IMG/VR virus record: IMGVR_UViG_3300008262_000188
Coordinates: 1-64,000 of that record
Strand: one strand, 5' to 3'
Origin: a virus
Length of the DNA stretch: 64,000 bases
Shown here in pieces: positions 3,966 to 55,742 of this stretch; position 1 is the first letter of the stretch, and each line of letters starts with the position of its first letter. The translations under genes were made by a program, and so were the position numbers. Below the pieces are notes generated by a model. That model worked only from the letters and a program-made list of their open reading frames with translations. It made no database searches and was not told the DNA's origin.

Positions 3966-3987
3966 ATATTTTTATTAAATATTATTT

Positions 3988-4251
3988 ATGACAAAAAGCT
4001 TTAAAGAAGCGTATAATGCAGCTCTTTCTTTTATATCGAACGATTGTTATACCAAAACGAACAGCATTAATGAGGATTCTGAGGGGGGTGCAACAAGTTC
4101 GTCGTTTGGCGATGGAATAGATTCAACATCTACAGCTTTTAGTGGTGACAATTACGCCAAAGATGATGCTAGAATTCCTTATGGTATATACGGAGGAGTA
4201 ATAACTCGTTATGGAATGAAAAAAAGCAGAAAAAAACGCAGAAAAAAGTAA
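3988..4251 (+). CDS. Small Ser/Gly-rich protein with basic C-terminus
   Basis: An 87-residue protein of unknown function. The N-terminus MTKSFKEAYNAALSF resembles the start motif shared by the putative internal head proteins at 8349, 12322 and 9555 (aromatic, acidic residue, Tyr, aliphatic), but no clear L/I-x-E cleavage site follows. The middle is Ser/Gly/Asp-rich and probably disordered. The last 14 residues are almost all Lys and Arg, suggesting nucleic-acid binding. It is followed after one base by the GIY-YIG-like gene. Confidence 0.5.
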   Translation: MTKSFKEAYNAALSFISNDCYTKTNSINEDSEGGATSSSFGDGIDSTSTAFSGDNYAKDDARIPYGIYGGVITRYGMKKSRKKRRKK

Positions 4252-7995: not shown

Positions 7996-8349
7996 TTAAA
8001 CCTTCTTTTGCTGATTATTTTGTTGTTGATTATTAGCTTGAGGTTGATTTTGTTGCTGGTTGGTATTGTTGTTTTGTTGAGGTGCTGGCTGTTGGGTGTT
8101 AGTTTTAGCAGCAGCTTGTTGCTGCTGTTGTTGCTGTTGATTAGCCTTAGCAGCTTGTTGAGCAGCTTGTTGAGCTTGCTTCATTTGTTTTTCTAGTTCT
8201 TGAAAAAGGGCTGGATTGTCTTTATGTTTTAAAAACAATCCTTGTAAATCTTTTTGTAAATTGGCTGGATTCGCCATTGGAGTTGCTGGAGCTGGAACTG
8301 TGTTTTCAGCGAGTGTAGCATTGTAAATTTCATCAAACGTCATTTTCAT
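7996..8349 (-). CDS. Gln/Asn-rich putative internal head protein with capsid-targeting-like N-terminus
   Basis: A 117-residue protein whose C-terminal half is almost only Gln, Asn, Ala and Pro, so intrinsically disordered. The N-terminus MKMTFDEIYNATLAEN matches the short start motif shared with the proteins at 12322 and 9555. L13-A14-E15 fits the L/I-x-E cleavage rule of the T4 prohead protease gp21. A minus-strand AATAAATA late box lies five bases before the ATG. I infer a protein packaged into the prohead; its job is unknown. Confidence 0.55.
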   Translation of the reverse strand: MKMTFDEIYNATLAENTVPAPATPMANPANLQKDLQGLFLKHKDNPALFQELEKQMKQAQQAAQQAAKANQQQQQQQQAAAKTNTQQPAPQQNNNTNQQQNQPQANNQQQNNQQKKV

Positions 8350-8354
8350 ATGTT

Positions 8355-8362
8355 TATTTATT
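8355..8362 (-). promoter_or_regulatory. Late promoter-like AATAAATA
   Basis: Minus-strand AATAAATA ends five bases before the ATG at 8349, the position expected for a gp55-type late promoter starting transcription at about the ATG. Confidence 0.5.
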
Positions 8363-8374
8363 ATATTTAATCAT

Positions 8375-9490
8375 TTATTCCATTTTGTCTTTAAAAGGAT
8401 TTGCTCCCTGCAAATCTCCAGCTTTAGGAATATATAAAATTGAAAGCAAACGCTTTAAAAAAGTATCAGCAGTATAGAACGTTTTTCTATTGGCAGATTT
8501 TCCAAATTCTCCAACTTTTTTTATTTTATCATAATTATGAATAAATTGTTCACAAAGCCTTCTAAATTCTGAAAAAAACTTCATAGTTTCTACTGAGAGA
8601 GGGTGAGTGCCGTGATACCTTACGTCTTCATCTCTTTCTGCAAACTCAGCAGAAGCTTTTGGGTTTTTTTTGGTTGCCTCCAATAACGTTAAATTAAAAT
8701 AGTTTTTAAAATTTTGATTTTCTGCAAATACTTTCTCTAAATCATTTTTAATTGTTTTGTATGTTTCGGGATCTTTTTGTTTTAAATTAGCTACTACCGT
8801 CACAAGTTTGCTGTAATCAGGAGTTGGAACTCCTGAAATTCCAGCTGATTTAGCATCACCTGTCGGTTTAATGCTAATGCTCGAAGGAGGAGTAGTAAAA
8901 TTAACTCTTTTCGGAGCTGATGCTGTCACTTCAGTTGATTCAGGCTTATCTGAGGAAGGTGCTGGCTCCGGAGTTGGTGCTACACCACGGCTAGGCACAG
9001 TTGGTGCAGACGGCACAGCACTAGAACCATCTTTACTTCCCGATTCTATACCTGAAGCTGTACCTCCGCTTACATCAGATACTGAACGGGGAGAAGATGA
9101 GGAAGCAGACGGATTATTCTTTATATAATTTGGAGGATCCTGCAAGAATTTTTGAGCTTCTTTAATTGCGTTTAGCTGTTTAGTAAATGACGAATTAGCA
9201 TTTTGCTCTGTGCTCAGCAAAGTAGATTGTTGTTTTAAATATTTTTCGATGGCATTTAAGGTTTTATTTCTAAACGAATTCCAAAGAGTTTGTACTTGAG
9301 CTTCTACTGGATTTTTTTGATTTTCTGGAGCTCTAACTACATTAGCTAATCTATTTCCAACATTAGAAGCCATTCCACCTAAAGCTCCAGCAGCATTAGA
9401 GGCTTTATGTTTTATTTGATCCCAAACTCCTTCTTCTAAAATTTGTTCAGAATAAACTTGTTCTAACAATTGTTGATCTTCAATTTTCAT
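8375..9490 (-). CDS. Large Ser/Pro-rich putative structural or internal head protein (371 aa)
   Basis: Unrecognised protein with three parts: a helical N-terminus (MKIEDQQLLEQVYSEQILEE), a Ser/Pro/Thr-rich linker at roughly 130-215, and a conserved-looking helical C-terminal domain with many aromatic and basic residues. I17-L18-E19 before EG would be a prohead-protease site. A CATAAATA box stands 13 bases before the ATG. It is next to, and co-oriented with, the Gln-rich gene. A head role is inference from the start motif and late box. Confidence 0.5.
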   Translation of the reverse strand: MKIEDQQLLEQVYSEQILEEGVWDQIKHKASNAAGALGGMASNVGNRLANVVRAPENQKNPVEAQVQTLWNSFRNKTLNAIEKYLKQQSTLLSTEQNANSSFTKQLNAIKEAQKFLQDPPNYIKNNPSASSSSPRSVSDVSGGTASGIESGSKDGSSAVPSAPTVPSRGVAPTPEPAPSSDKPESTEVTASAPKRVNFTTPPSSISIKPTGDAKSAGISGVPTPDYSKLVTVVANLKQKDPETYKTIKNDLEKVFAENQNFKNYFNLTLLEATKKNPKASAEFAERDEDVRYHGTHPLSVETMKFFSEFRRLCEQFIHNYDKIKKVGEFGKSANRKTFYTADTFLKRLLSILYIPKAGDLQGANPFKDKME

Positions 9491-9503
9491 TTAAATGCTC
9501 AAT

Positions 9504-9511
9504 TATTTATG
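9504..9511 (-). promoter_or_regulatory. Late promoter-like CATAAATA
   Basis: Minus-strand CATAAATA ends 13 bases before the ATG at 9490. It is 29 bases from the divergent late box of the 9555 gene. Confidence 0.45.
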
Positions 9512-9540
9512 TCATATTGGAGTTTTTTTGTAGTTTAACA

Positions 9541-9548
9541 AATAAATA
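9541..9548 (+). promoter_or_regulatory. Late promoter-like AATAAATA
   Basis: AATAAATA ends six bases before the ATG at 9555, which would put the late transcription start at about the base before the start codon. Confidence 0.5.
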
Positions 9549-9554
9549 ACTTTA

Positions 9555-10847
9555 ATGTTTGTAAATTTTAAAAACTTAATCGAATCAGTTCTTACTGAAA
9601 ATACTCTACAAAAGACCGAAGAAGCTGAACCACTGGTTTCAGACGATACGTCTAAAGAAACAACTGACGATTCAAAGGAAGACGAAACTCCTACTGAAGC
9701 TACTTTAGATGCAAAACCTTTATTTGAATTATTTTTTGATGTAGATAAACCAGCAAGTGACGGAAAGGCATCAGAAAGCTCGGATGTGGTCTTTACTCCG
9801 AAAAATTTAACGCGAGAAATTAATGAAGTTAATGTAATTTATCAAAACGCTTATGGTCCAGGATCTGCACCCACCTTAGACGTTTTAACTAAAATTTTTA
9901 ATATTTGGATAAAATGCTGGACAAGAACTTCTGCCTCTCAATTTTTCGAGTACTCACAATATTTACCTTATATTGAGCTTATGGCTCAAGTAGCAAATTT
10001 AGCTCCAGGCAACCCATCTTCTGTAGTAGAAAGATTTAAAAAAGCTCCAATTTCAATAACCGCTTTTAAAACTCAACTTGACAAATTTAAAGTATCAATT
10101 CAAAACAGAACTACAGCTAATCCTATAGACTTTCCTGTCGCAACAGCTGAAGGACAATATGTAGCTACTCAAATAAGAAAGCAATTACAACAAAATTATG
10201 TAGGACAAATAACGCTCGATAAATTTGCAGGCAACAGCATTAAAGATGCTATATTTTACATTTTAGAAGCAAGAAAAAAAGCAAGATTAGCTACACTTTC
10301 AACAACAAGTGTTCCCGATCAAGGTCCAGCTGTAACAGACGTATTACTACATCCAAAGAAATACGCTGGAGGAACCTACGCATTTAGCAATAAGGTTAGC
10401 AGCGACAAAATATACACAAGAGCGATACATACAGAATTATTAAACATAGGTCTAGCAGGCAAGAGATTTTTTGATTCTGAAATTAATAGATTATTTCCAA
10501 AGGACGAACAAGGTAAGTTTAAACCTCCTGGCCCTAAAACTGGCGATACTGCATATGAAGTATTTTTAAGTAACTCCTCAAAAGAACAAGGATTTTATGC
10601 ATTTGATGCAGAAGAAGGCAAAGTTGTATTGGCTAAAGACGTCGGAAAAGGAGGATATACGATCGGCAATATAAAATCGATCATGGGCAACAACGAAGCA
10701 GCTAAAGATTTATATGAATTATTAATGACTCTTGCTAATTACGTAAGAGAAGGAGAAATCGTAGATTGGTTGTCTGTAATTCGAGGAGCTGGTAAAATAG
10801 CTGATGGGTTAAGTTTTGGTGCACCTACCGTTGGTGGAAAACGCTAA
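9555..10847 (+). CDS. Putative internal head/virion protein (430 aa)
   Basis: Unrecognised 430-residue protein. It starts MFVNFKNLIESVLTEN, the same short motif as the internal-head candidates, with L13-T14-E15 as a possible prohead-protease cut. An acidic, Thr/Glu-rich linker follows (about 16-60), then a well-folded-looking body. Two regions are rich in Gly and aromatic residues (near 255 and 340). A late AATAAATA box lies six bases upstream. It converges on the primase gene with a four-base overlap of stops. Function unknown; virion location is inferred. Confidence 0.55.
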   Translation: MFVNFKNLIESVLTENTLQKTEEAEPLVSDDTSKETTDDSKEDETPTEATLDAKPLFELFFDVDKPASDGKASESSDVVFTPKNLTREINEVNVIYQNAYGPGSAPTLDVLTKIFNIWIKCWTRTSASQFFEYSQYLPYIELMAQVANLAPGNPSSVVERFKKAPISITAFKTQLDKFKVSIQNRTTANPIDFPVATAEGQYVATQIRKQLQQNYVGQITLDKFAGNSIKDAIFYILEARKKARLATLSTTSVPDQGPAVTDVLLHPKKYAGGTYAFSNKVSSDKIYTRAIHTELLNIGLAGKRFFDSEINRLFPKDEQGKFKPPGPKTGDTAYEVFLSNSSKEQGFYAFDAEEGKVVLAKDVGKGGYTIGNIKSIMGNNEAAKDLYELLMTLANYVREGEIVDWLSVIRGAGKIADGLSFGAPTVGGKR

Positions 10848-10866
10848 AAAGCGCTTAGTATTTTTT
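10842..10866 (+). terminator. Possible rho-independent terminator at convergent stops
   Basis: CGCT (10842-10845), AAAA loop, AGCG (10850-10853), with a run of six T at 10861-10866. The stem is only four base pairs, so it is weak. It covers the stop codons of the two convergent genes. Confidence 0.3.
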
Positions 10867-11851
10867 GCTTAATCAATGCACCGCTTCCCTTAAAACTGTG
10901 TTTTACTATAAACTTCCAATCAATCTCATTTAGCTTTAACTCACAACACACTTCATTTATATCTTTGAATCTCTTAAACTCTTTGGGCCAAATAAATACA
11001 GTCTTACCGTCTTTGATTGTCTTTTCTATTTTTTTAGACGTTTGTTTATTGTTTTTATCATTATCAAAAACGTAAATTTTCTCGTAGCCCAATAAATTGT
11101 TGAGCTCTTCTGTCTGACTTTCTGTTGGCGATAAAGCTGCAATTGCAACTCCGTTTTTCACAAACATAGAATCAATTGGTCCTTCGAATATAAAAACATA
11201 AGGTATATCAGAAATAATATTTGTTATATTAAACACATGTTTCTCTCCAAATTTAGTCAAATACTTTGGATGTTGGTCAGCTGTTAATGCTCGAGTTTGA
11301 TAACACACCACTTTGTCGTTATCACCGTAAAACGGAAGAATCAATCTATTCTTATGAATTTTATCTTCTAATGAAACATAAAAATGCTTACAGCGGTTTA
11401 TAGCTGTAAGCAAACGTCTGTGTTCACAATAGTTTATAGCATTTTTTACAACCTGACTCGAATTAAAAAATGCAACCTGAGACGCGTCTTCTATATCTAT
11501 ACTATTTTCTGGAAGATCAGGTATGTCCTTCACTAATTTAGAATGTGTTACTGTTTTTTTAATAAATGGCACTACCGAATTAGATTTTTCGTTATTCCGT
11601 TTAATAATTTCTGGTACTGAAAGTCCAGTCACTTCTTTAACCCACTCAAAAGGTTTCCAAGATTTTGAACAGTTATGGCAAAAAAAATATTGTTTATTTG
11701 GAAAATAGAATAAACGTCTAGTTCTACCTGCAGATTTTCCCTCCTTACATATAGGACATTCTGCGTTAAATATATTTTGATAACGTTTATGCATTGCCCT
11801 TTTACAATGCACGTAAATCATTTCAACCAAAAACTCTTGTGAAAGTTCCAC
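10844..11851 (-). CDS. DnaG-type DNA primase
   Basis: A 335-residue primase. The N-terminal zinc ribbon uses C32/C35 (CPIC) and C58/C61 (CHNC), and the TOPRIM domain shows EGPID at 223-227 and DNDK at 263-266, the metal-binding acidic residues. The gene is short compared with bacterial DnaG and lacks a helicase domain, fitting a phage primase such as T4 gp61. It lays RNA primers for lagging-strand synthesis. No late box is seen upstream; the partner helicase is outside the window. Confidence 0.83.
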   Translation of the reverse strand: MELSQEFLVEMIYVHCKRAMHKRYQNIFNAECPICKEGKSAGRTRRLFYFPNKQYFFCHNCSKSWKPFEWVKEVTGLSVPEIIKRNNEKSNSVVPFIKKTVTHSKLVKDIPDLPENSIDIEDASQVAFFNSSQVVKNAINYCEHRRLLTAINRCKHFYVSLEDKIHKNRLILPFYGDNDKVVCYQTRALTADQHPKYLTKFGEKHVFNITNIISDIPYVFIFEGPIDSMFVKNGVAIAALSPTESQTEELNNLLGYEKIYVFDNDKNNKQTSKKIEKTIKDGKTVFIWPKEFKRFKDINEVCCELKLNEIDWKFIVKHSFKGSGALIKQKILSAF

Positions 11852-11899
11852 TAAGGAACTATACTAAAAAAATAAATTTTTTTCAACAAAAATAACAAA

Positions 11900-12322
11900 T
11901 TAACGCTTAACAGCATTAATCATAAAGCTTTTTAGTTTTTCTGAAATCGATAACAAGGTTTCTGCTACACTAACAATGTCAGCTTTTGTTCTTCCAGAAA
12001 TTCCATCAAAAGGTGTTCCAGGTCTATCTAGTGAAGCTACTAAACTCTGTAAAGAACTACCTTCCATTCCATTAAGCTTTTCAGCAAAATCTTCTAACTG
12101 AAAAATATAATCTTTTAAAGTAGAAGCAGTAGGAACTTCTGAATTGACTGGTTGTCCTTCTTCTGTTTCAGTTGCTGGCTCTGCTTGAGGAATTGGTTCG
12201 ACGTCATCAAAATCTTCTGGCATAGGAACTGTAGATCCACCCTCTGTCTCGGCAGGTAAGTCCGCAGATTGCTTTTCTTCTTCAGCCAAATAAACGCTTT
12301 TGTATAATTCGTCAAACTTCAT
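11900..12322 (-). CDS. Acidic putative internal head protein with capsid-targeting-like N-terminus
   Basis: A 140-residue protein beginning MKFDELYKSVYLAEEE, the clearest example of the shared start motif; L12-A13-E14 is a good prohead-protease site. The middle is Glu/Pro-rich and disordered, the C-terminal ~50 residues are helical and end in a basic tail. A CATAAATA late box stands five bases before the ATG. By analogy with T4 internal proteins it would be packaged, cleaved and stay in the head; this is inference. Confidence 0.55.
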   Translation of the reverse strand: MKFDELYKSVYLAEEEKQSADLPAETEGGSTVPMPEDFDDVEPIPQAEPATETEEGQPVNSEVPTASTLKDYIFQLEDFAEKLNGMEGSSLQSLVASLDRPGTPFDGISGRTKADIVSVAETLLSISEKLKSFMINAVKR

Positions 12323-12327
12323 AATTA

Positions 12328-12335
12328 TATTTATG
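12328..12335 (-). promoter_or_regulatory. Late promoter-like CATAAATA
   Basis: Minus-strand CATAAATA ends five bases before the ATG at 12322, predicting an essentially leaderless late mRNA. Confidence 0.5.
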
Positions 12336-17633: not shown

Positions 17634-17684
17634 AGGACTTGATTAACATTTGAATTATGAGTTTTTCAACAATTTTTATTTTAT

Positions 17685-18136
17685 TGGAGATGAGGGGAAT
17701 CGAACCCCTGTCCATATAACCTAAGCTAAAAGGTCTTCACACGTTTGGATACATTCAACATTTCAGCCACCTTACGGTGACAAAGACAAAAGGCTGCATG
17801 GTTGTATCAACCGATTTTTATGTCTGCCTGCACAAGTGAGAGGTCTTGTACTACCTCTGTATCAGTTTTTCTATGATCTCTAACAGTTCATCAAAACCTC
17901 TGCGTTTCAAAATAGATTTAGAGGATCCTCTATTAGGCTCTTAGGCTTCGAGAGCACAAGCTTCTTCAACGTCGATGAGAAACTCATCAGCGTTGTTGAA
18001 GATGTAATCAGCTTCAGCTAAGAGATCAGAAGTATTGTCTTCTGCGTTTAGTGTTCAATCGATTTTTAAAGAGGCCATCGATTAACCTCTACATGCGCTT
18101 TTAGTTTCAACTATATGTCGAAACCAGGGCACCCCC
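17685..18136 (-). ncRNA. ssrA: tmRNA (one-piece) with long tag reading frame
   Basis: The 5' end GGGGGUG (18136-18130) pairs with CAUCUCC (17692-17686) to close a 7-bp acceptor stem with A at 17685 as discriminator; CCA is not encoded. GGUUUCGAC near the 5' end and GGGGUUCGAUUCCCC at the 3' end are the standard tmRNA D- and T-arm features. An H-type pseudoknot before the tag (GAGG with CCUC, and AAUCGAU with AUCGAUU) matches PK1 of E. coli tmRNA. The resume codon GCA at 18045-18043 follows UAAAC, equivalent to UAGUC in E. coli. The frame runs 34 codons to UAA at 17943-17941 and begins AEDNTSDLLAEADY, ending VEEACALEA. Trans-translation with phage-supplied tmRNA is the expected role. Confidence 0.93.
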
Positions 18137-22155: not shown

Positions 22156-22228
22156 GGGGGTATAGCTCAGTTGGTAGAGCGCCAGCTTTGCAAGCTGGAT
22201 GTCAGGGGTTCGAATCCCCTTGCCTCCA
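22156..22228 (+). tRNA. tRNA-Ala (TGC)
   Basis: Acceptor GGGGGTA pairs with TGCCTCC, anticodon loop TTTGCAA, T loop TTCGAAT, discriminator A. CCA is not encoded. It stands alone, 1.8 kb before the main array. Confidence 0.93.
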
Positions 22229-22240
22229 CTTTAATTAAAG

Positions 22241-22246
22241 TTGTCT
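22241..22246 (+). promoter_or_regulatory. TTGTCT -35-like box
   Basis: TTGTCT 33 bases before the ATG at 22274, directly after tRNA-Ala. Confidence 0.4.
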
Positions 22247-22273
22247 TTTGTTTTTTATTAACTAAATTAATTA

Positions 22274-23041
22274 ATGAGCACAAGTCAAAATCATCCTCTT
22301 GGAGAAACAACACTCGCAAATAATAAAAAAGCGTGGTCAACTCCAGGAAGCGACACCTTTAGAGGAGAAGGATGGAGCAATGCTTTTGGCGGAAGCGACT
22401 CTCAATGGTGGACTACAATATTTCCCAGAATTAGAAAATATATTAATTCACACTGCATTGTAGAAATAGCTTGTGGTTGGGGTAGGTGGTCTCGGTTTTT
22501 AAACAACACGTGCAACAAGTTCGTTGGCTATGACATTAACGATACAGGAATTAAGAATTGTGAGCAGCAATTCTATTTCGACATCTTAAATAAAAAAGCT
22601 TTCTTTTATTTAAATGACGGAAAAACATTAACTCATACCGAAGACAATTCGGTAGATTTTATATTTAGCTATGATTCGCTAGTTCACTCTCAATTGGATG
22701 TAATAGAAAGCTATATTAAAGAAGCAAAACGAACTCTAAAGCCCGGAGGAACCATGTTTTTACATCACAGCAATTTGCAAAATTGCAATACATCGAATAA
22801 CAAACACTGGAGATCTCCAGATGTAGGGTTTGAGTTAGTTAATAACTTAACTAAAGCCAACAATTTATCAATAATTAGTCAAGAGATGTTCTCTTATGAT
22901 ACAACAAACGACAGCAAGTCGTTACACGATTGTTTCACAGTAGTACGAAACTCTCCACAAGCAAATGAAACTATTTTTTTTAACTTAAATTATAACGACG
23001 AAATGACTAATTGCAAAAGAATAGCTCAAACATACAGCTAA
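22274..23041 (+). CDS. SAM-dependent methyltransferase
   Basis: 255 residues, class I methyltransferase fold. VEIACGWGRWSRFL at about 63-76 is motif I (SAM-binding glycine loop), DFIFSYDSLVHSQLD near 135 is motif IV region, and AKRTLKPGGTMFLHHSN near 160 is the post-IV/V strand. This is the type found in glycan and small-molecule methylation. It is followed after one base by a 90-residue fragment-like gene. The substrate may be a sugar, given the rest of the genome; not demonstrable. Confidence 0.75.
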   Translation: MSTSQNHPLGETTLANNKKAWSTPGSDTFRGEGWSNAFGGSDSQWWTTIFPRIRKYINSHCIVEIACGWGRWSRFLNNTCNKFVGYDINDTGIKNCEQQFYFDILNKKAFFYLNDGKTLTHTEDNSVDFIFSYDSLVHSQLDVIESYIKEAKRTLKPGGTMFLHHSNLQNCNTSNNKHWRSPDVGFELVNNLTKANNLSIISQEMFSYDTTNDSKSLHDCFTVVRNSPQANETIFFNLNYNDEMTNCKRIAQTYS

Positions 23042-23042
23042 A

Positions 23043-23315
23043 ATGAACAGCAATTTGCCGTGTTTAAATAAAACCTCGTGGAAAGGAGTACATAACGGAA
23101 ATTACGAATTTGACCATTTAATTGAAAAATCAGCACTAGCTGTTCATTTTTTAAGCATGGTTCTTACATTGGCTAAATGTAAATGGATAATAACTACAAC
23201 AACAAATGTTTCTTTGTGGATGGTACTTTATAGAGGAAACACAACAAATGTGCACCAGTGGACTGAAATTGAAAAGGATTCTGAAGGAAAATGGATATAC
23301 GGTTGGAATTGTTAG
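23043..23315 (+). CDS. Short protein, probably C-terminal remnant of a larger enzyme
   Basis: 90 residues, MNSNLPCLNKTSWKGVHNGN then AVHFLSMVLTLAKCKWIITT and LWMVLYRGNTTNVHQW. The last 50 residues have the look of the conserved C-terminus of a longer sugar-related protein (a strand ending in ..TNvSLW..lyRGN..NV), without the catalytic N-terminal part. I therefore suspect a truncated gene attached to the methyltransferase operon. Identity uncertain. Confidence 0.4.
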   Translation: MNSNLPCLNKTSWKGVHNGNYEFDHLIEKSALAVHFLSMVLTLAKCKWIITTTTNVSLWMVLYRGNTTNVHQWTEIEKDSEGKWIYGWNC

Positions 23316-23325
23316 AAGTCCTACC

Positions 23326-23877
23326 TTATAAAATTTTTGATAACTGATTAGTTAAAATTATTTTAATGTCATTTGTTGTACGATTTATAGAATCCAACTT
23401 AATTGATATTCCTCCGCTTTCTGTCCAAGCTTTAAGATACGGATCATAATCATCAATTAATATATTAGGCTGTCCACTTTCACTAATAGCCCACTTAGCT
23501 TTATTTTGAGTCAGTATTATTTCGCTTGGAGGATTTTTAACTAAATATTTTTTAATCCAGCGAATTTTTCCTTTTTTTGATGCTTCTATATCAATTTGAG
23601 CAGGCTTAGAGCATATTTTATAAAAAGGATCGAACCCCGACACGATTTCTACGATTTGTTGAGTTTTGTCTTCAAATTCGAGCAAATCAGCAAAAAATGA
23701 TTCTACTCCTCCGAAATTATTAAAAAAAGCTGAAGCACGCTTTTTGTCCTTCCAAATTGCTTTTGCGTTTAATATTTCATCTTGTGTGAGTTCCAAGTAA
23801 GTCTTATTAAACATTTCTAACGCAATTTTTCCATACAAATCAACAAGGACACCATCCATGTCTAAAAATATATTCAT
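23326..23877 (-). CDS. HAD-family 5'(3')-deoxyribonucleotidase-like phosphatase
   Basis: 183 residues. LDMDGVLVD at 5-13 is HAD motif I with nucleophile Asp and acid/base Asp; ILIDDYDPYLKAW near 139-151 is motif IV with paired Asp; a Lys-containing strand lies between (EIILTQNKAKWA). This arrangement matches phage NT5C-like deoxyribonucleotidases, which dephosphorylate nucleoside monophosphates. Monocistronic, leftward, before the tRNA array. Confidence 0.72.
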   Translation of the reverse strand: MNIFLDMDGVLVDLYGKIALEMFNKTYLELTQDEILNAKAIWKDKKRASAFFNNFGGVESFFADLLEFEDKTQQIVEIVSGFDPFYKICSKPAQIDIEASKKGKIRWIKKYLVKNPPSEIILTQNKAKWAISESGQPNILIDDYDPYLKAWTESGGISIKLDSINRTTNDIKIILTNQLSKIL

Positions 23878-24049
23878 GTGTTAACTATACTCCATTATCT
23901 ATAAAAGCCGACTGTTTATTATTTTACCGTAATTTAATTTATTTTTTGATTTTTTGTTGCCTTTATAGAGTAAATAACGGACAGTAGTCAAACAATAAAG
24001 CTAATTCAAAACTAGCAAACAATGATCTTTGAAAAGTACAACAAAAATT

Positions 24050-24124
24050 TGGCGAGTAGCTCAGTGGTAGAGCGGTCGGCTGTTAACCGATTGGTCGTAG
24101 GTTCGAATCCTACCTTGCCAGCCA
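24050..24124 (+). tRNA. tRNA-Asn (GTT)
   Basis: Acceptor TGGCGAG/CTTGCCA, anticodon loop CTGTTAA, T loop TTCGAAT, discriminator G, CCA encoded at 24122-24124. Confidence 0.93.
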
Positions 24125-24140
24125 CTTTAACATTGTTTTT

Positions 24141-24226
24141 GCTCGGATGGCGTAATGGCAGCCGCAACGGACTTAAAATCCGTTGGTCTAACGACCGTGA
24201 GGGTTCGAGTCCCTCTCCGAGTACCA
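24141..24226 (+). tRNA. tRNA-Leu (TAA)
   Basis: Class II tRNA: anticodon loop CTTAAAA, long variable arm, T loop TTCGAGT, acceptor GCTCGGA/TCCGAGT, CCA encoded. Confidence 0.92.
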
Positions 24227-24234
24227 CTTTCTAC

Positions 24235-24311
24235 GTTTCCATAGCTCAACTGGATAGAGCAACGCTCTTCTAAAGCGTAGGTTGCTGGTTCGATTCCAGC
24301 TGGGAACGCCA
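24235..24311 (+). tRNA. tRNA-Arg (TCT)
   Basis: Acceptor GTTTCCA/TGGGAAC, anticodon loop CTTCTAA, T loop TTCGATT, CCA encoded. Confidence 0.93.
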
Positions 24312-24320
24312 TTTTATAAT

Positions 24321-24393
<73 letters not shown>

Positions 24394-24401
24394 TTTTTTT
24401 T

Positions 24402-24496
24402 GCAAGGTTAGTATAACTGGATAGTACCGACAGACTTATAATCTGTGTGCCCTAGATGTGGGCCGAGCGTGGGTTCGATTCCCACACCTTGCACCA
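24402..24496 (+). tRNA. Class II tRNA with TAT anticodon (Ile by codon)
   Basis: Acceptor GCAAGGT/ACCTTGC, D stem GTAT/GTAC, anticodon stem ACAGA/TCTGT with loop CTTATAA (anticodon TAT, reads AUA), then a 22-base variable arm containing GCCC/GGGC, T loop TTCGATT, A73, CCA encoded. A long variable arm is normal for Leu, Ser and Tyr, not for Ile. Confidence 0.85.
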
Positions 24497-24520
24497 TTTT
24501 TAAACAAAACAATATTTTGC

Positions 24521-24605
24521 GGGTAGTTCGTATAGCGGCAATTACCGGAGACTGTAAATCTCCTGCCTTCGGGCTTCGCAGGTTCGAGTCCTGCACTACC
24601 CACCA
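24521..24605 (+). tRNA. tRNA-Tyr (GTA)
   Basis: Class II: acceptor GGGTAGT/ACTACCC, anticodon loop CTGTAAA, variable hairpin GCCTTCGGGC, T loop TTCGAGT, CCA encoded. Confidence 0.92.
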
Positions 24606-24655
24606 CTTCAGGAAGATTTGAACTCGATGTACAAATTGTATAAATAAACCAACTT

Positions 24656-24727
24656 CGAGTACGAGGAAGAAAGAAATCCGCCTGGTTTGGGACCAGGAAA
24701 TACTCGGGGCAGTACCGAGGTACTCGA
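24656..24727 (+). tRNA. Degenerate tRNA-Pro-like element (TGG)
   Basis: A complete cloverleaf can be drawn: acceptor CGAGTAC (24656-24662) with GTACTCG (24720-24726), D stem GGA/TCC, anticodon stem CCTGG/CCAGG with loop TTTGGGA (anticodon TGG), T stem CTCGG/CCGAG. C1:G72, A73 and the TGG anticodon are the bacterial proline identity set. But the D loop (AGAAAGAAA) lacks GG and the T loop (GGCAGTA) lacks TTC, so the normal elbow cannot form. No CCA. It sits three bases before tRNA-Gly. Confidence 0.6.
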
Positions 24728-24730
24728 TAT

Positions 24731-24804
24731 GCGGGATTAGTTTAATGGTAAAACAGGAGTTTTCCAAACTTCGGTTGGGAGTTCGATTCTCCCATCCCGC
24801 ACCA
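24731..24804 (+). tRNA. tRNA-Gly (TCC)
   Basis: Acceptor GCGGGAT/ATCCCGC, anticodon loop TTTCCAA, T loop TTCGATT, CCA encoded. Confidence 0.93.
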
Positions 24805-24809
24805 TTTTC

Positions 24810-24883
24810 AGACCTATAGCTCAGTTGGTTAGAGCAGTTCATTGATAATGAACAGGTCGTTGGTTCAAGTCCAACTAGGTCTA
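24810..24883 (+). tRNA. tRNA-Ile (GAT)
   Basis: Acceptor AGACCTA/TAGGTCT, anticodon loop TTGATAA, T loop TTCAAGT, A73, no full CCA. Confidence 0.92.
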
Positions 24884-24894
24884 CATTTATAATA

Positions 24895-24920
24895 GGCGGA
24901 GTTAGCTCAGCGGTAGAGCT
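24895..24920 (+). pseudogene. 5' fragment of a tRNA gene broken by the HNH gene
   Basis: GGCGGAGTTAGCTCAGCGGT and the following AGAGCT form the acceptor 5' strand and a complete D arm of a tRNA, then the sequence stops abruptly. No matching 3' half exists between 24921 and 25526. The tRNA identity is lost with the anticodon. Confidence 0.75.
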
Positions 24921-25468
24921 AATTTTTTAATTCTATATCTTTTATTATAAGATGAACGTTTGGTGTTTTTAATGTTCCGTCCACAAAATGTTTCAGTTTG
25001 TGAGTGACAATTTGGACATAACAATCTTAAATTCTCTAAAAAATTGTTATCAGAATTACCGTCTATGTGATCCAAATGCAAACTTAAACGTTTTCCGTTC
25101 CATTCTGTAATGCCACAGCAAAAGCATTTGTGCTTTGTTTTAAATTCTATTACACGTTTTAATGTCGAGGATTGGTTTATTAGTCCTTGCTCAGCTCTTA
25201 AAAGAGTTTCATTAAGAAATTGAAAATCTCTTTGACATTTATTACTGCAATATGTTCCAGTAGACGCATGACAAGAATACACAAACTCGACTTTACAATT
25301 TTTACAGTTGCTTTTAAATGAGGTTGTATTTTTATACTCTCTTTGCTTGTTATTATATGAAGCTGCACAAGATCGATTACAGAATTTTTTTAAACGCTCT
25401 TCTTTGCATTTGTTTTGAAAAAAAATACTAGTACAATTTTGACAAACTGATTCAATTAGATTAGGCAT
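24902..25468 (-). CDS. HNH homing-type endonuclease with zinc fingers
   Basis: 188 residues. Three Cys clusters in the first ~80 residues (CQNC.., CKNCKVEF, YCSNKCQRDF) are zinc fingers; the HNH core reads CFCCGITEWNGKRLSLHLDH then NFLENLRLLCPNCHSQT (about 115-165). This is the phage-type homing endonuclease layout. Its last six codons and stop (LALPLS) are read from the antisense of the tRNA 5' fragment at 24902-24920, so the gene invaded a tRNA. A CATAAATA box lies six bases before the ATG, suggesting late expression. Confidence 0.85.
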   Translation of the reverse strand: MPNLIESVCQNCTSIFFQNKCKEERLKKFCNRSCAASYNNKQREYKNTTSFKSNCKNCKVEFVYSCHASTGTYCSNKCQRDFQFLNETLLRAEQGLINQSSTLKRVIEFKTKHKCFCCGITEWNGKRLSLHLDHIDGNSDNNFLENLRLLCPNCHSQTETFCGRNIKNTKRSSYNKRYRIKKLALPLS

Positions 25469-25474
25469 GTATAT

Positions 25475-25482
25475 TATTTATG
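25475..25482 (-). promoter_or_regulatory. Late promoter-like CATAAATA
   Basis: Minus-strand box ending six bases before the HNH ATG at 25468. Confidence 0.45.
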
Positions 25483-25526
25483 AGAATAAGACCAAATATT
25501 TCAAAACAAATGGTCTATTTTTCAAA

Positions 25527-25602
25527 GCTCGGGTAACTTAGCGACTAAAGTACCTGCTTTACACGCAGGCTATCGTGGGTTTGAGTCCCACCCCGAGCAC
25601 CA
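25527..25602 (+). tRNA. tRNA-Val (TAC)
   Basis: Acceptor GCTCGGG/CCCGAGC, anticodon loop TTTACAC, T loop TTTGAGT, CCA encoded. Confidence 0.92.
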
Positions 25603-25609
25603 TTTTAAA

Positions 25610-25692
25610 GCTCATGTGGCGAAATTGGCAGCACGCGCCAGACTTAGGATCTGGTTCCGTAAGGAATGTGGGTTCGAGTCCCTCCATGAGCA
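25610..25692 (+). tRNA. tRNA-Leu (TAG)
   Basis: Class II: acceptor GCTCATG/CATGAGC, anticodon loop CTTAGGA, T loop TTCGAGT, A73, no CCA. Confidence 0.92.
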
Positions 25693-25710
25693 TATTTTAA
25701 TTAAATAAAA

Positions 25711-25795
25711 GGAAGGGTGGCAGAGTGGTCTATTGCAGCGGTTTACTAAACCGCCGAGGCGCAAGTCTCCGAGAGTTCGAATCTCTCCTCTTCCG
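25711..25795 (+). tRNA. tRNA-Ser (ACT)
   Basis: Class II: acceptor GGAAGGG/CTCTTCC, G73 as in Ser, anticodon stem GCGGT/ACCGC, loop TTACTAA giving anticodon ACT, T loop TTCGAAT, no CCA. Bacteria normally use GCT here; A34 is unusual. Confidence 0.85.
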
Positions 25796-25801
25796 TTTTT
25801 T

Positions 25802-25876
25802 GCTCCCATAGTGTAGCGGTTAGCACATCTCCCTTTCACGGAGGTAGCAGGGGTTCAAGTCCCCTTGGGAGTGCCA
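25802..25876 (+). tRNA. tRNA-Glu (TTC)
   Basis: Acceptor GCTCCCA/TGGGAGT, anticodon loop CTTTCAC, T loop TTCAAGT, G73, CCA encoded. Confidence 0.92.
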
Positions 25877-25882
25877 TTTTAA

Positions 25883-25955
25883 TACGGAGTAGCACAATTG
25901 GTAGTGCATCAGAATTTGGATCTGAGGGTTATAGGTTCGAGTCCTATCTCCGTAG
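25883..25955 (+). tRNA. tRNA-Gln (TTG)
   Basis: Acceptor TACGGAG/CTCCGTA, anticodon loop ATTTGGA, T loop TTCGAGT, G73, no CCA. The U1-A72 pair is typical of Gln. Confidence 0.92.
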
Positions 25956-25960
25956 TTTTT

Positions 25961-26008
25961 TGTTGTCTTTCAAATAGCTTAATTTAATTATTCGTACAAT
26001 GGGAACAA
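25961..26008 (+). repeat. 48-bp leader repeat, copy 1
   Basis: Identical to 26802-26849. It contains TTGTCT (25963-25968, 36 bases before the ATG) and the first three codons of the sulfotransferase gene. Confidence 0.9.
25963..25968 (+). promoter_or_regulatory. TTGTCT -35-like box
   Basis: 36 bases before the ATG at 25999, just after tRNA-Gln. Confidence 0.5.
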
Positions 26009-26793
26009 AACAGCAAGATAATATAAAACAATTTGCAATATTCTCTTTGCATAGGTCAGGCACGAATCTTTTGACGTGTTTATTGGATAACATTGATCAC
26101 GTTCAATGTTACGACGAAGTATATTGCAGCCAGGATGAGTTGAATCCCAACTATCTTCACACAAAACTTATTATATCTAAACTAGGAATAGAGCAATACA
26201 GTAGATTAGAAGAACAAAAAAAATCTAACCCATTAGCTTTTTGGAATACAATAGTAAGATTGAGTGATAAATCTACTAAAGCTGTAGGATTTAAAATATT
26301 TGCAGGGCACCACGACAAATTTTTAGAGTTTATAGCGAAATCTTCTAACTACGAAAAAATTATATTATTAAGAAATCCTATTGCAAGGTTTATTTCATTT
26401 ACTAGAGCAATCACTACGGGTTTATGGTTGCAAGTAATAGATGACGAACATACAACATTAACAAAGAAACTAATATTTAATCCTGATGAGTTTGAACTTT
26501 TTTTGAAAAAACACAATGAATCCTTTAATTGGTATTTGCATTTAGCTAAACAACAACCACATAAATATTTGATTACAACGTATGAGGACGTTGTAAGTAG
26601 AAAATCAATAAAACTCATTCTCGATAAGTTAACCATCAATTGTCCTCCCAAGTGTAGAATGTTTACAGATTTAGCAAAGCAATCGACTGAGCCAATTGAT
26701 AGTTGTTTTGTAAACTACGAACAAATGAAAGACTATTTAATCTCAAACCATCCGACTCTATTAAATAACCCCGGTTGCCCAGAACTTCCCTAG
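25999..26793 (+). CDS. Sulfotransferase, copy 1
   Basis: 264 residues, PAPS-dependent sulfotransferase fold. IFSLHRSGTNLLTCLLD at about 13-29 is the 5'-phosphosulfate-binding loop, and KIILLRNPIARFISFTRA near 118-135 is the 3'-phosphate-binding motif (R-N-P..R..S). It would transfer sulfate from PAPS to a sugar or other hydroxyl. A second gene with the same leader and a clearly related protein follows, so this is a tandem duplication inside the tRNA array. PAPS must come from the host. Confidence 0.8.
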   Translation: MGTKQQDNIKQFAIFSLHRSGTNLLTCLLDNIDHVQCYDEVYCSQDELNPNYLHTKLIISKLGIEQYSRLEEQKKSNPLAFWNTIVRLSDKSTKAVGFKIFAGHHDKFLEFIAKSSNYEKIILLRNPIARFISFTRAITTGLWLQVIDDEHTTLTKKLIFNPDEFELFLKKHNESFNWYLHLAKQQPHKYLITTYEDVVSRKSIKLILDKLTINCPPKCRMFTDLAKQSTEPIDSCFVNYEQMKDYLISNHPTLLNNPGCPELP

Positions 26794-26801
26794 CTTTTTT
26801 G

Positions 26802-26849
26802 TGTTGTCTTTCAAATAGCTTAATTTAATTATTCGTACAATGGGAACAA
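26802..26849 (+). repeat. 48-bp leader repeat, copy 2
   Basis: Exact second copy of 25961-26008, again covering the promoter-like box and the first codons. Confidence 0.9.
26804..26809 (+). promoter_or_regulatory. TTGTCT -35-like box
   Basis: 36 bases before the ATG at 26840; part of the duplicated leader. Confidence 0.5.
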
Positions 26850-27610
26850 GTCATCAAGATGATATAAAACAATTTGCAATATTTTCTCTGCATAGAACAG
26901 GTTCATCCTTATTGGTAGATATATTAGATCGTATTCCTTCGATTAAATGTTATTATGAATTATACAAACCGGATACAGAATATTCGGATCAGGAATGGAT
27001 AATTCAGCATGGAAGTACACATCAAAATTGGAAAGAACGAAACAAAGCTGAACCTTTAGCTTATTGGAACGAAATAGTAAAGCTGAGTAGTAATTCTAAA
27101 TTTAAAGCTATCGGATTTAAAATATTCTGGGATCAAAATCAAACATTATTAAAGTATATAGCTGATTCACCTAAGTATCAAAAAATTATATTATTAAGGA
27201 ATCCCATTGCGAGGTACATCTCGACGTTGAGAGCTAAAGCTACAGGAAAATGGTTTCAAATTAAGACTGAACCGACCGCAAGAAAACTAGTATTTGATCC
27301 TGACGAGTTTGAACTTTTTTTGAGAGATCATATCTGTGGAGCTCGGTATTATTTGCGAAAAGCAAAAGAATTTCCTGATAAATATTTAAACATAACATAC
27401 GAAGATGTTATTAGTAGAAATTCGATAAAAAACATTTTTGATAGATTAGAAATTAATGATTTTTCTGAGCATAAATTAACCACACAGTATGCAAAGCAAT
27501 TTATCGAACCAATCGACAGTTGTTTTTTAAACTACGACCAAATGAAAGACTATTTAATCTCAAATCATTCATCCTTATTGAATGAACCTGGTTGCCCAAA
27601 ATTTTTCTAA
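26840..27610 (+). CDS. Sulfotransferase, copy 2
   Basis: 256 residues, paralogue of the gene before it. IFSLHRTGSSLLVDILD is the 5'-phosphosulfate loop and KIILLRNPIARYISTLRA the 3'-phosphate motif. Both proteins end with nearly the same stretch (NYDQMKDYLISNHSSLLNEP here). The region after the first motif, which usually selects the acceptor, differs most, suggesting different acceptors. Both lie between tRNA genes. Confidence 0.8.
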   Translation: MGTSHQDDIKQFAIFSLHRTGSSLLVDILDRIPSIKCYYELYKPDTEYSDQEWIIQHGSTHQNWKERNKAEPLAYWNEIVKLSSNSKFKAIGFKIFWDQNQTLLKYIADSPKYQKIILLRNPIARYISTLRAKATGKWFQIKTEPTARKLVFDPDEFELFLRDHICGARYYLRKAKEFPDKYLNITYEDVISRNSIKNIFDRLEINDFSEHKLTTQYAKQFIEPIDSCFLNYDQMKDYLISNHSSLLNEPGCPKFF

Positions 27611-27621
27611 TCATTTTGAAG

Positions 27622-27627
27622 TTGTCT
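27622..27627 (+). promoter_or_regulatory. TTGTCT -35-like box
   Basis: 35 bases before the ATG at 27657. Confidence 0.45.
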
Positions 27628-27656
27628 TTTTAAAAAAATCTTTTAATGTACTAAAC

Positions 27657-27794
27657 ATGAAAACACTCATGGCTATTTTGTCGCTAGCAACTGTAATTGC
27701 TCTTTCTTCTTGTACATCTCCCAAAGCTTGCGTAAAAAATTCTTGTAAACCTGCTGATTGCAAAACCGTTTGTAAACCAGTCCGTTCTAACTAA
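27657..27794 (+). CDS. Tiny Cys-rich lipoprotein (45 aa)
   Basis: MKTLMAILSLATVIALSSC is a lipoprotein signal with lipobox ALSSC (lipidated C19). The mature part is only about 27 residues and has four more cysteines in CVKNSCKPADCKTVCKPV. The frame is open further upstream but would overlap the sulfotransferase; ATG 27657 gives the clean signal peptide and a TTGTCT box 35 bases before. Outer-membrane phage lipoproteins often block superinfection; that is inference. Confidence 0.55.
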   Translation: MKTLMAILSLATVIALSSCTSPKACVKNSCKPADCKTVCKPVRSN

Positions 27795-27805
27795 ATAATT
27801 TTAAT

Positions 27806-27881
27806 CGCGATGGGCTAGGCCAGGTGGTCTGGTGTGTCTCATAAGCACACAAATTGGGTTCGAGTCCCAACGTCGCTACCA
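27806..27881 (+). tRNA. tRNA (CAT), initiator-like Met or Ile2
   Basis: Acceptor CGCGATG/CGTCGCT has a C1.U72 mismatch with six further pairs; D stem CTAG/CTGG, anticodon stem TGTGT/GCACA, loop CTCATAA, T loop TTCGAGT, CCA encoded. The unpaired 1:72 position recalls initiator tRNA, but the three G:C pairs of initiator anticodon stems are absent. Confidence 0.85.
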
Positions 27882-27887
27882 TTTTAA

Positions 27888-27959
27888 GCCGGGTTAGCAC
27901 AGTGGTAGTGCGACGGTTTTGTAAACCGTAGGTCATCGGTTCGACCCCGATACCCGGCT
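27888..27959 (+). tRNA. tRNA-Thr (TGT)
   Basis: Acceptor GCCGGGT/ACCCGGC, anticodon loop TTTGTAA, T loop TTCGACC, discriminator T, no CCA. Last tRNA of the array. Confidence 0.9.
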
Positions 27960-28000
27960 CCCTCGTATAAAATTACAAAGGTTTGATTAAATACTTTATT

Positions 28001-28327
28001 ATGCATAAAGACGAAAAACTTTTAATTGAAGCTTATACTGCTATGACAGAAAAGGCAGAACATTGCAAATATGCTGTAGATGGATGTGAATGTGGAGAAT
28101 GTATTGAATGTTCAGAGCACAAAGCTAATAAATCAAAAGATTTAACAGGTGATGGCAAAGTTAACTCAGAGGATTATTTAAAAGCTAAGGATTTGGCTAT
28201 CAAAAAAGCTCATTTTAAAAGTAAAGAAAAGAAAAACAAAAAAAGCGTAAAAGAATCTTTTGTTCCTAGTCAATCTCTAACAAAATTTGAAGAAGCATAT
28301 AAAGATATTTTAGAATGGTTTGAGTGA
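28001..28327 (+). CDS. Small protein with Cys cluster and dockerin/EF-hand-like loop
   Basis: From ATG 28001: MHKDEKLLIEAYTAMTEKAE, then a compact Cys cluster C22...C29-x-C31-x2-C34-x2-C37, then DLTGDGKVNSEDYLKAKDLA at about 47-66, which fits the 12-residue calcium loop of dockerin/EF-hand proteins (D.TGDGKVN..D). The C-terminus SLTKFEEAYKDILEWFE resembles the head-targeting start motif seen elsewhere, but at the wrong end. An upstream in-frame TTG at 27983 is possible. Function unknown; a calcium- or metal-binding virion protein is plausible. Confidence 0.55.
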   Translation: MHKDEKLLIEAYTAMTEKAEHCKYAVDGCECGECIECSEHKANKSKDLTGDGKVNSEDYLKAKDLAIKKAHFKSKEKKNKKSVKESFVPSQSLTKFEEAYKDILEWFE

Positions 28328-52684: not shown

Positions 52685-54360
52685 ATGCAATTTTTATACA
52701 ATCTTGCTCAAAAGAAATCGAAGATGGACGATTAGCACGACTTATCAAAAGCATTTTTAAACACAAAACAAGAATAATAGACATTTGTGTGTTTTTAGAT
52801 AAAGAAAGTTTTAAAGCCAACCTATCATCTTTAATTGGCTTTAGTTCTTTAATACAATTCATTGTCGTTGACGACACAACCGTATTGAATCCAACAACAA
52901 AAGTTTTTCATTTTTTAATAAATTATGAACCAGAAAAGTATAAAAAAATTCTTTTGTTGGAATCTGATTGTGCCATATTTCCAAGATTTGACGAACATCT
53001 TAATCGTGAGATTTTATCCTTAAATAAGTCTGAATGGTTTATTTGTGGTTCAACATACTACGGAAATAAATGGAAAACGGTTGAAAACACCCCACAAGAT
53101 TATTCAAACCACATGAACGGAGTAGCTGTTTATAACAGAAGTAGTAAATTTCTACAGTTATTAAACGAGCTTTTCTTAACTCACAATCTTGAAAACATTC
53201 ACACAAATTATGATTTTGCTTTACATCAAGCAATGAAAGACAGCTATTCATCATATTGTGTTGACAGTAAATCAATATTAAACCTTTCAGATATTGATGA
53301 TTTCAATTTACATCACAAAGACAAAAAAAATGAAGCTGTCGTAATTCACACGAAAAACTTCTATTATACTCATATAGATTTAATTAAAAAACTAAAAACG
53401 CAAAAAAACAACATTAAGCAGAATCTGTCAAATAATTGTCGAAAAGTCCCCGTATTTCTCCATATACCAAAATGCGCAGGAACTTATATAGAAGGAGTAC
53501 TAACTCGAGTAATGACATGGTATGGGTTACAAAACAAATGGAACGAAACGTCTAGCCATTTATGGAATTTTTGTCTTCGTAGAGTGTCGGTTTTAACAAG
53601 AACGGACCAAACTTGCTTAACTTTATTAGTCTATGATTATCAAAACTTATGCGAAGAAAACGAGAAGGTTGAAAGAGTGGATGATTATAGTTCTACTATA
53701 TATCTAGACGATTTACTTGCAAACATACACAGCTTTCGTTTTTTTGTTTTTGCTATTGTAATACAATCACACGGCATTCAGTTTATTTTATCGGGTATAA
53801 TTGAAGCTATTTGTGACAACTGGGGTCTCGATCCTGTTCTTTTTACAACCATGCGAGATTCTTTCACTAAAGCAAAATCAATGTTTTCATATCTCTCAAG
53901 TGCTGCTTCACAGCACGAAACAACACATAAGGCTATAAAATCAGAAACATTCGAGTCATATCTAAGCTCCTTCGAATGTGAAGATAGTTGGTTGATACGA
54001 GAATTGTTGAGATTAAAACCAAGCGAAATTATAACTGAACAACATTATGAAAATACGACACAATATTTAAATTCATTTTTTGTTATAGATAGCACAAAAA
54101 AAACGAATTTAGTATTAACAAAAATATTACAAGAATGTTATGAAATAGATTACAGCAAATTGCCAAATGAGTTTAACGGACAATTAGTTTCGAGAAATGA
54201 AAGCACCAATAAGCCAAAAACGACTTTTAATGATTTAAACGAAGAAGCTAAAGAGTTTTTCTATAATAGAACTATGTACGATCAAAAATTATATGAAAAG
54301 TATTGTTCGAGAACTCTTAATATAGACAACAAACAAAATGAAAATTTACACATATCATGA
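52678..54360 (+). CDS. Glycosyltransferase-sulfotransferase fusion
   Basis: 560 residues. About 1-245: GT-A-like domain (AIFIQSCSKEIEDGRLARLI; KYKKILLLESDCAIFPRFDE with E-S-D-C in the metal position; MNGVAVYNRSSKFLQLLNEL). From about 258: VPVFLHIPKCAGTYIEGVLT, a sulfotransferase 5' loop (P-K-C-A-G-T); DPVLFTTMRDSFTKAKSMFS near 385 resembles the 3' motif with R and S. One protein could add a sugar and sulfate it. It overlaps the beta-helix gene by seven bases and the next by 23. Confidence 0.65.
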   Translation: MLDAIFIQSCSKEIEDGRLARLIKSIFKHKTRIIDICVFLDKESFKANLSSLIGFSSLIQFIVVDDTTVLNPTTKVFHFLINYEPEKYKKILLLESDCAIFPRFDEHLNREILSLNKSEWFICGSTYYGNKWKTVENTPQDYSNHMNGVAVYNRSSKFLQLLNELFLTHNLENIHTNYDFALHQAMKDSYSSYCVDSKSILNLSDIDDFNLHHKDKKNEAVVIHTKNFYYTHIDLIKKLKTQKNNIKQNLSNNCRKVPVFLHIPKCAGTYIEGVLTRVMTWYGLQNKWNETSSHLWNFCLRRVSVLTRTDQTCLTLLVYDYQNLCEENEKVERVDDYSSTIYLDDLLANIHSFRFFVFAIVIQSHGIQFILSGIIEAICDNWGLDPVLFTTMRDSFTKAKSMFSYLSSAASQHETTHKAIKSETFESYLSSFECEDSWLIRELLRLKPSEIITEQHYENTTQYLNSFFVIDSTKKTNLVLTKILQECYEIDYSKLPNEFNGQLVSRNESTNKPKTTFNDLNEEAKEFFYNRTMYDQKLYEKYCSRTLNIDNKQNENLHIS

Positions 54361-55042
54361 AGATCTTAGGTTCGAACATTCAAACAGACTTTTAAAAATA
54401 TGGAAACAAAGTTGGCAACAGAATGGATTTATTCCAATAGTTTTGTCGAGAAAAGATTGTATTGAGCATCCATATTACACAAGCTACTCAAATGAACTTA
54501 GAAAAATTTCAATTGAAATAAGTGGAAAACCTCCAACCGAATATGGATTAGCTTGTTGGCTACGCTGGCTAGCATATTCTACACAAAACGATGAAGAATT
54601 TTACGTAAGTGATTATGACGTTATAAATCATAACTTTTATCCAACAAAACCGCTCGTAGGGTTATATATGTTGGATCACACTTGCCCGTGCATTGCTAGT
54701 GGTAGACCAAAAGATTTTGAGTGGTTGTGCAAAACCTTAATACATACAGTAAATAATAATAAAGATTTTTTTAAAAAAATTTATAAGAACATGCAAGAAA
54801 CTTACTGGTTTAATGATCAAGAATTTTTTCAAATTGTTAACGAGCTGGATCATAACTTAATTAAAATGACTAGAAATAGGGAAACGTTTTTAAGCACTCC
54901 ACTCATGCACGAATTTTGGAAAAAGCCTTTAGTACATTATGGTAGTGCTTTATGTGATTTATATTTACAACGTTTTTTGAAAAAATTTACTCCACAAGCT
55001 CGAGTTAATTTAATCGAAGAATCCTTAAAGAAAAATTCATGA
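54338..55042 (+). CDS. Glycosyltransferase-like protein, tandem paralogue 1
   Basis: 234 residues. MKIYTYHEDLRFEHSNRLLK, GLACWLRWLAYSTQNDEEFY and VSDYDVINHNF: a nucleotide-sugar transferase-like core with D-Y-D in the D-x-D place. Later YWFNDQEFFQIVNELD and MHEFWKKPLVHYGSA. Two related proteins follow directly, overlapping or spaced by two bases. Family not named with certainty. Confidence 0.6.
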   Translation: MKIYTYHEDLRFEHSNRLLKIWKQSWQQNGFIPIVLSRKDCIEHPYYTSYSNELRKISIEISGKPPTEYGLACWLRWLAYSTQNDEEFYVSDYDVINHNFYPTKPLVGLYMLDHTCPCIASGRPKDFEWLCKTLIHTVNNNKDFFKKIYKNMQETYWFNDQEFFQIVNELDHNLIKMTRNRETFLSTPLMHEFWKKPLVHYGSALCDLYLQRFLKKFTPQARVNLIEESLKKNS

Positions 55043-55740: not shown

Positions 55741-55742
55741 AC

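Follow-up and report, generated by a model that had tools for sequence, protein, structure and literature searches.

Why should unrelated proteins of one virus begin alike? The question is raised by a 64,000-nucleotide (nt) stretch of viral DNA (the window), whose source is a 69,126-base virus record. Here a first-pass annotation had singled out four open reading frames (ORFs), of 117, 371, 430 and 140 amino acids (aa), and had explained their common start of about 15 residues, judged less clear in the 371-aa protein, as a capsid-targeting leader cut by the prohead protease, as in the internal proteins (IPs) of phage T4. All four ORFs and their N-termini lie exactly where it had placed them, each N-terminus ends in L/I-x-E, and each gene has a late box that matches TATAAATA at 7/8 positions and begins 13–21 nt before the start codon. 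The proteins are indeed unrelated and do share a start; this is not a single 15-mer, however, but two related types of tag, A and B. Capsid targeting and prohead-protease processing are the best explanation of the conserved tag glutamate, the register with gp23, the spacing of [LIV]-x-E and the protease gene found in relatives. With a probability of roughly 0.8, the tags would be capsid-targeting propeptides of the T4 internal-protein design, cut by a gp21-type protease.

The lineage is that of an uncultured, T4-like bacteriophage. Its whole gene order in the window is kept in a close relative, G001 (IMG/VR 3300028569_002824, 124 kb). Searches of G000 and G001 with PF03420 and PF07068 gave no match, and further relatives were therefore reached through gp17 instead; this terminase search yielded G002 (217 kb), G003 (125 kb) and G004 (78 kb). 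Among the matches listed, no isolate terminase exceeds about 37% identity. The genes gp20, gp21 and gp23 are present in G002 and G003, where a scaffold ORF between gp21 and gp23 is gp22 by position. Peptidase_S77, the gp21-type protease, was found in nine of the 25 records searched, among them six of the seven of at least 114 kb, G001 being the exception.

The strongest evidence for what appears to be a real protease site at the end of a tag is the register with gp23 of a small protein, mini-gp23. This late-box protein of the same kind (3988–4251) had been overlooked in the first-pass annotation, as had a weak type-B start at 28001. The mature part of the window's mini-gp23 matches gp23 of G002 (BLASTP, E=4e-8), and the alignment starts at INE↓DSEGG opposite LRE↓GSNS, the predicted gp23 maturation site, a prediction made from the position of L/I-x-E (FLTE↓A in T4, FLGE in HTVC008M and FLSE in G003). 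The G002 member of the family gives E=7e-9 against gp23, again with the alignment starting at the predicted maturation site, and a profile search of the ORFs of seven records returned gp23 similarity at E=1.5e-7. Further on, GVITRYGM of mini-gp23 resembles the conserved GLLTRYGV near the C-terminal end of gp23 and is followed by KKSRKKRRKK. What mini-gp23 shares with gp23 is the segment just past the predicted maturation site and the TRxG piece; it differs in being 69–92 aa long in most cases, in having no gp23 body, and in its own propeptide and lysine/arginine tail.

The mini-gp23 search found 80 loci. After incomplete or repeated copies were dropped, the 45 small copies found gave 35 distinct complete ones; four copies each of longer frames like L193 (400 aa) and L209 (200 aa) were left out of this count. 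In all 35, L-x-E stands 19–22 residues before FSGD, its middle position being filled by 11 different residues; a late box accompanies 23 of them. Correspondingly, [LI]xE lies 20–23 residues before FSGD in 14/14 distinct gp23 sequences. In the longer open frames, L193–L196 (400 codons) and L209–L212 (200 codons), the gp23 N-arm segment is internal, and in L209–L212 a longer gp23-like stretch precedes the basic tail. Mini-gp23 had no match at E up to 1 in the isolate phages searched. As it combines the mature N-arm of gp23 with a lysine/arginine tail, mini-gp23 probably sits between shell and DNA; speculating from its make-up, it may occupy the N-arm contacts of gp23 while its tail binds DNA.

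In the window's tagged families the tag is conserved and the sequence beyond it has diverged. The tag glutamate is kept in 15/15 sequences of the 117-, 430- and 140-aa families from five phages (E15 in 5/5 phages for the 117-aa family). The first invariant column of the 430-aa family is E15 and the next L111; the 140-aa family has invariant M1, F3, Y7, V10 and E14, followed next by P35. P3, the L/I position of the motif, is L or I in 12/15 type-A tags. For the 371-aa protein the predicted leader holds but its end moves: E20 is invariant between the window and the G001 ortholog and E19 is not, so the likely cut, LEE↓GVWDQI, lies one residue past the ILE proposed earlier. By inspection, type-A tags contain an aromatic/hydrophobic pair three residues apart (F3/L6, F5/I8 or F5/L8), and type B differs. 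An AlphaFold2 model of the 430-aa protein, of low confidence (mean predicted local distance difference test score 52.2), has a helix at residues 5–14 and then coil at 15–55; this poor model found no match under 0.001 in BFVD.

A type-A profile was built from the 15 tags and run on 1374 N-terminal candidates from the five phages and on 20 shuffle sets. With alternative starts and seeds left out, it found 12 further loci where at most 0.4 were expected, including the N-terminus of the gp22 scaffold (G003 29941), the mini-gp23 family and the G001 ortholog of the 371-aa protein. When one family at a time was left out, the window's 140-aa N-terminus ranked 10 of 1364 (0.05 expected) and the 117-aa N-terminus 11 of 1364 (0.10 expected). 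In the held-out records G008 and G012, eight loci were found against 0.85 expected, and 5/8 have a late box (background 80/343). On 532 N-termini from HTVC008M, P-SSM4 and a 25-kb T4 stretch, the top match was T4 IPI, a weak one (6.2 bits, 1.97 expected). Two of the profile's matches were regarded as probable false positives: G001 6294, AAA/CobS-like by family tallies, and G002 192638, which is taken up below.

Type B, to which the window's 371-aa protein belongs, has the consensus MKxKDQxLLE(E/Q)AYxx(I/V). G004 has eight type-B genes within its first 9 kb, and a profile of their starts picked out clear members in each of G001, G002 and G003; the control stretches of T4, HTVC008M and P-SSM4 had none. 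The 371-aa start of the window scored only 6.3 bits with it (1.0 expected). The weak start at 28001 has no late box upstream, and its G001 ortholog starts MHNDEKLLSEAYATMLEKAE.

In a scan of IMG/VR with the type-B core alone, in which no start codon was demanded and the test set was picked on the core only, 70/70 distinct protein matches were N-terminal, with the core 2–3 residues past the start codon (ATG in 68, GTG in 2). Two matches shorter than 40 aa were dropped, and the other 68 proteins form 43 clusters beyond the tag (BLASTP, 1e-3). The 11 residues after the core contain [LI]xE in 42/68 proteins and [LIV]xE in 54/68, compared with 2–8 of the 68 in windows further along; column shuffling gave expectations of 26.0 and 33.9, and 0/2000 shuffles reached the observed counts. 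With one protein per cluster the counts are 24/43 (14.5 expected) and 31/43 (21.2 expected), reached in 0/5000 shuffles each. Leu8/Leu9 use all six leucine codons and Ala12 all four alanine codons; as synonymous codons are free, selection acts on the protein, and a nucleotide-level signal in place of a protein tag is rejected. The exact type-B DNA pattern had 0 matches in 84,980 prokaryote genomes. A 23-residue type-B query had no match in isolate phages, so short a query being a weak test.

Late boxes accompany both tag types. TAAATA lies within 40 nt upstream of 14/15 type-A genes (p 1.4e-9) and 8/12 type-B genes (p 4e-4), and of 116/625 other ATG ORFs; in the window it does so for 15 of the 76 ATG ORFs of at least 60 aa. 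The sequences show the tags and their conservation, the gp23 register, the late boxes and the protease gene of relatives; that the tagged proteins dock, are cleaved, packaged and injected, as in T4, is inferred. During late infection, a T4-type late promoter would drive expression of the tagged protein, whose N-terminal amphipathic stretch (approximately F/Y-x-x-L/I; in type B, LLEEAYxx(I/V)) would dock on the prohead core. Cleavage behind the glutamate of L/I/V-x-E, by a gp21-type protease, would then release the mature part within the head, from which the phage would deliver it together with its DNA.

Could short N-termini simply look alike by chance in an AT-rich genome? A pattern taken directly from the T4 rule (targeting residues 4 and 7, L/I-x-E, 10–19 residues; PMC9026906) occurs in 4/84 ATG ORFs of the contig, where shuffled sequences have 1.56 on average and 31/500 shuffles reach 4. 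Within the window alone it is marginal, and the window by itself is thus insufficient for the claim. Elsewhere the pattern occurs in 8/147 ORFs of G001 (0/500 shuffles), 5/97 of HTVC008M (8/500) and 1/140 of P-SSM4; it was dropped as a detector for being too loose. It is the relatives that make the observation strong. The 430-aa N-terminus generalised poorly, ranking 210 of 1364 when its own family was left out, and chance is least excluded for this protein when it is considered by itself. For type B and mini-gp23 chance is already refuted, and as a general account it is very improbable, being contradicted by ortholog conservation, the 70/70 N-terminal placement, the held-out profile matches and the gp23 register.

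Further observations tell against capsid targeting by cleaved tags. The L/I-x-E rule of gp21-type substrates holds at the leader ends with exceptions at P3, where 3/15 type-A tags have V or F, and where the window's 371-aa protein has L but its ortholog in G001 has F. Homologs of the 140-aa family in G012 and G008 begin differently, and 12/43 type-B representatives have no [LIV]xE after the tag. Neither gp20–gp23 nor a gp21-type protease was found on the window's 69-kb contig or G001, both of which are read as fragments. One tag-list member, probably G002 192638, matches T4_baseplate and the baseplate-hub family, which means that the cargo list is not pure and that not every look-alike is head cargo. 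That match, and the late boxes ahead of other genes, would suit ordinary amphipathic helices with which late virion proteins bind a tail, baseplate or portal partner without proteolysis. Such an account is unlikely, since [LIV]xE after type B is enriched at the protease spacing and at no other, and for E but not when E is replaced by D, K, Q or S, and since the tag glutamate of mini-gp23 is in register with the predicted gp23 maturation site. Somewhat less doubtful, if still improbable, is the idea that type B (KDQxLLEEAY) is a separate signal, for example for another partner, and that type A alone targets the capsid: the type-B profile scores T4 IPs negatively, and no aromatic residue stands at type-B positions 3–5. 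Yet G012 31558 matches both profiles (14.3 and 20.8 bits), which makes the two types look like extremes of a single range; the type-A profile gives 12.7 bits to the 371-aa ortholog in G001; and tags of both types come with late boxes and with [LIV]xE behind them. Capsid targeting by tags of either type is the reading preferred here.

Table 1. Tagged proteins, late boxes and transfer-messenger RNA (tmRNA) gene of the window (↓, predicted cut)
Feature	Position	Strand	Sequence	Remarks
Mini-gp23, 87 aa (fifth tagged protein)	3988..4251	+	MTKSFKEAYNAALSF...SINE	start longer and diverged; propeptide 1–29 (3988–4074) ending INE; gp23 N-arm-like 30–64; TRYG piece 70–77; K/R tail 78–87
Late-box-like sequence	3974..3981	+	ATTAAATA	6/8; ahead of mini-gp23
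117-aa tagged protein	7996..8349	-	MKMTFDEIYNATLAE	tag 1–15 (8305–8349), TLAE↓N; rest Q/N-rich
Late box	8355..8362	-	AATAAATA	ahead of 117-aa gene
371-aa tagged protein	8375..9490	-	MKIEDQQLLEQVYSEQILE	type-B-like tag 1–20 (9431–9490), LEE↓G
Late box	9504..9511	-	CATAAATA	ahead of 371-aa gene
Late box	9541..9548	+	AATAAATA	ahead of 430-aa gene
430-aa tagged protein	9555..10847	+	MFVNFKNLIESVLTE	tag 1–15 (9555–9599), VLTE↓N, then variable linker
140-aa tagged protein	11900..12322	-	MKFDELYKSVYLAE	tag 1–14 (12281–12322), YLAE↓E
Late box	12328..12335	-	CATAAATA	ahead of 140-aa gene
tmRNA gene, complete	17682-18136	-		ARAGORN tag peptide EADYIFNNADEFLIDVEEACALEA; Rfam RF00023, 111.6 bits, full length
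Weak type-B-like start	28001..28327	+	MHKDEKLLIEAYTAMTEKAE	8.2 bits, 0.35 expected

Domain scans covered 116 of the 125 listed tagged proteins. L097, a duplicate of a G004 gene, was dropped ahead of counting. Few of these tagged or tag-like proteins match known families. Matches include a NUDIX domain in L070 (type B), a cytidylyltransferase in G002 95048, and weak metallopeptidase matches with HExxH in G001 3541 and G004 70100; G003 87830 has HExxH and no family match. PADLOC returned two candidate matches among the 116. The G002 95048 protein (L051:15048-15653) is a nucleotidyltransferase of the CTP_transf_like family with the motif GRYNPPTVGH and a T4-like start, MKTFRQFFLES; it may be a nucleotide or NAD enzyme that is packaged.

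The T4-type genes of the window, which is without capsid genes, include a helicase (594–2033) and a gp61-like primase (10844–11851). A tmRNA gene is unusual on a phage, and none was found in the searched stretches of G001. Sixteen tRNA genes, mostly in two clusters, lie at 22156–27962, and the G001 set is similar. Tandem paralogs at 25999–26793 and 26840–27610 are 53% identical (BLASTP, 5e-91), with almost the same 40 nt upstream. Three more tandem paralogs at 54338–56507 start with MK(I/V)YTY or MRICTY and are 35–42% identical. The G001 record (L008) has a gene pair (103296–104147 and 109551–110423) that is 91% identical and about 6 kb apart.

The principle of capsid targeting is already known; the type-B tag and the capsid-derived cargo mini-gp23 appear to be new. 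T4 IPI, IPII and IPIII resemble the proteins described here in their short leaders on unrelated mature parts, the L/I-x-E end, the T4-type late box and the gp21-type protease, present here in relatives. They are described as having only the leader in common (PMC12373910), and Ip1–3 as inhibiting different type IV restriction enzymes (PMC12373910; PMC3012670). Residues 4 and 7 are reported to target IPIII (PMC9026906); by inspection the type-A pair three residues apart resembles them, a likeness that is marginal in the window when used as a search pattern and that type B does not share. The T4 leaders have 10–19 residues and the present tags 14–20; the residues differ, and there are many more cargo families here, with cargo that is mostly not basic. 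For type B, the stretches of T4, HTVC008M and P-SSM4 that were tested contain nothing equivalent. In phage P1, DarB is routed by its N-terminal residues into the capsid and so delivered (PMC9024508), a likeness in what is described for the two systems; it concerns a single large protein compared with many small ones here. SPN3US and phiKZ also have N-terminal propeptides that a prohead protease cuts after Glu, but in SPN3US the motif is A-x-E and the propeptides are mostly long (PMC10052503). In the open-access literature, a full-text search for the tag letters and searches by topic listed no description of the type-B leader, its 43 cargo clusters or mini-gp23.

The T-even injected internal proteins were found through their leader and proved to be anti-restriction proteins (PMC12373910). 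Likewise, the leader recognisable in these uncultured T4-like phages allows candidates for injected proteins of host takeover and counter-defence to be listed, most of them without a known domain. With mini-gp23 the cut site can be judged against an internal reference, and the protein suggests a shell–DNA linker that was not found in the isolates searched. We consider it an evenly balanced proposition that MKxKDQxLLE(E/Q)AY..[LIV]xE labels more than 40 unrelated proteins and so lists an injected arsenal, and that mini-gp23 uses the N-arm contact of gp23 to tie the packaged DNA to the inside of the shell. If this is true, a label read from sequence alone would list what these phages inject into their host.

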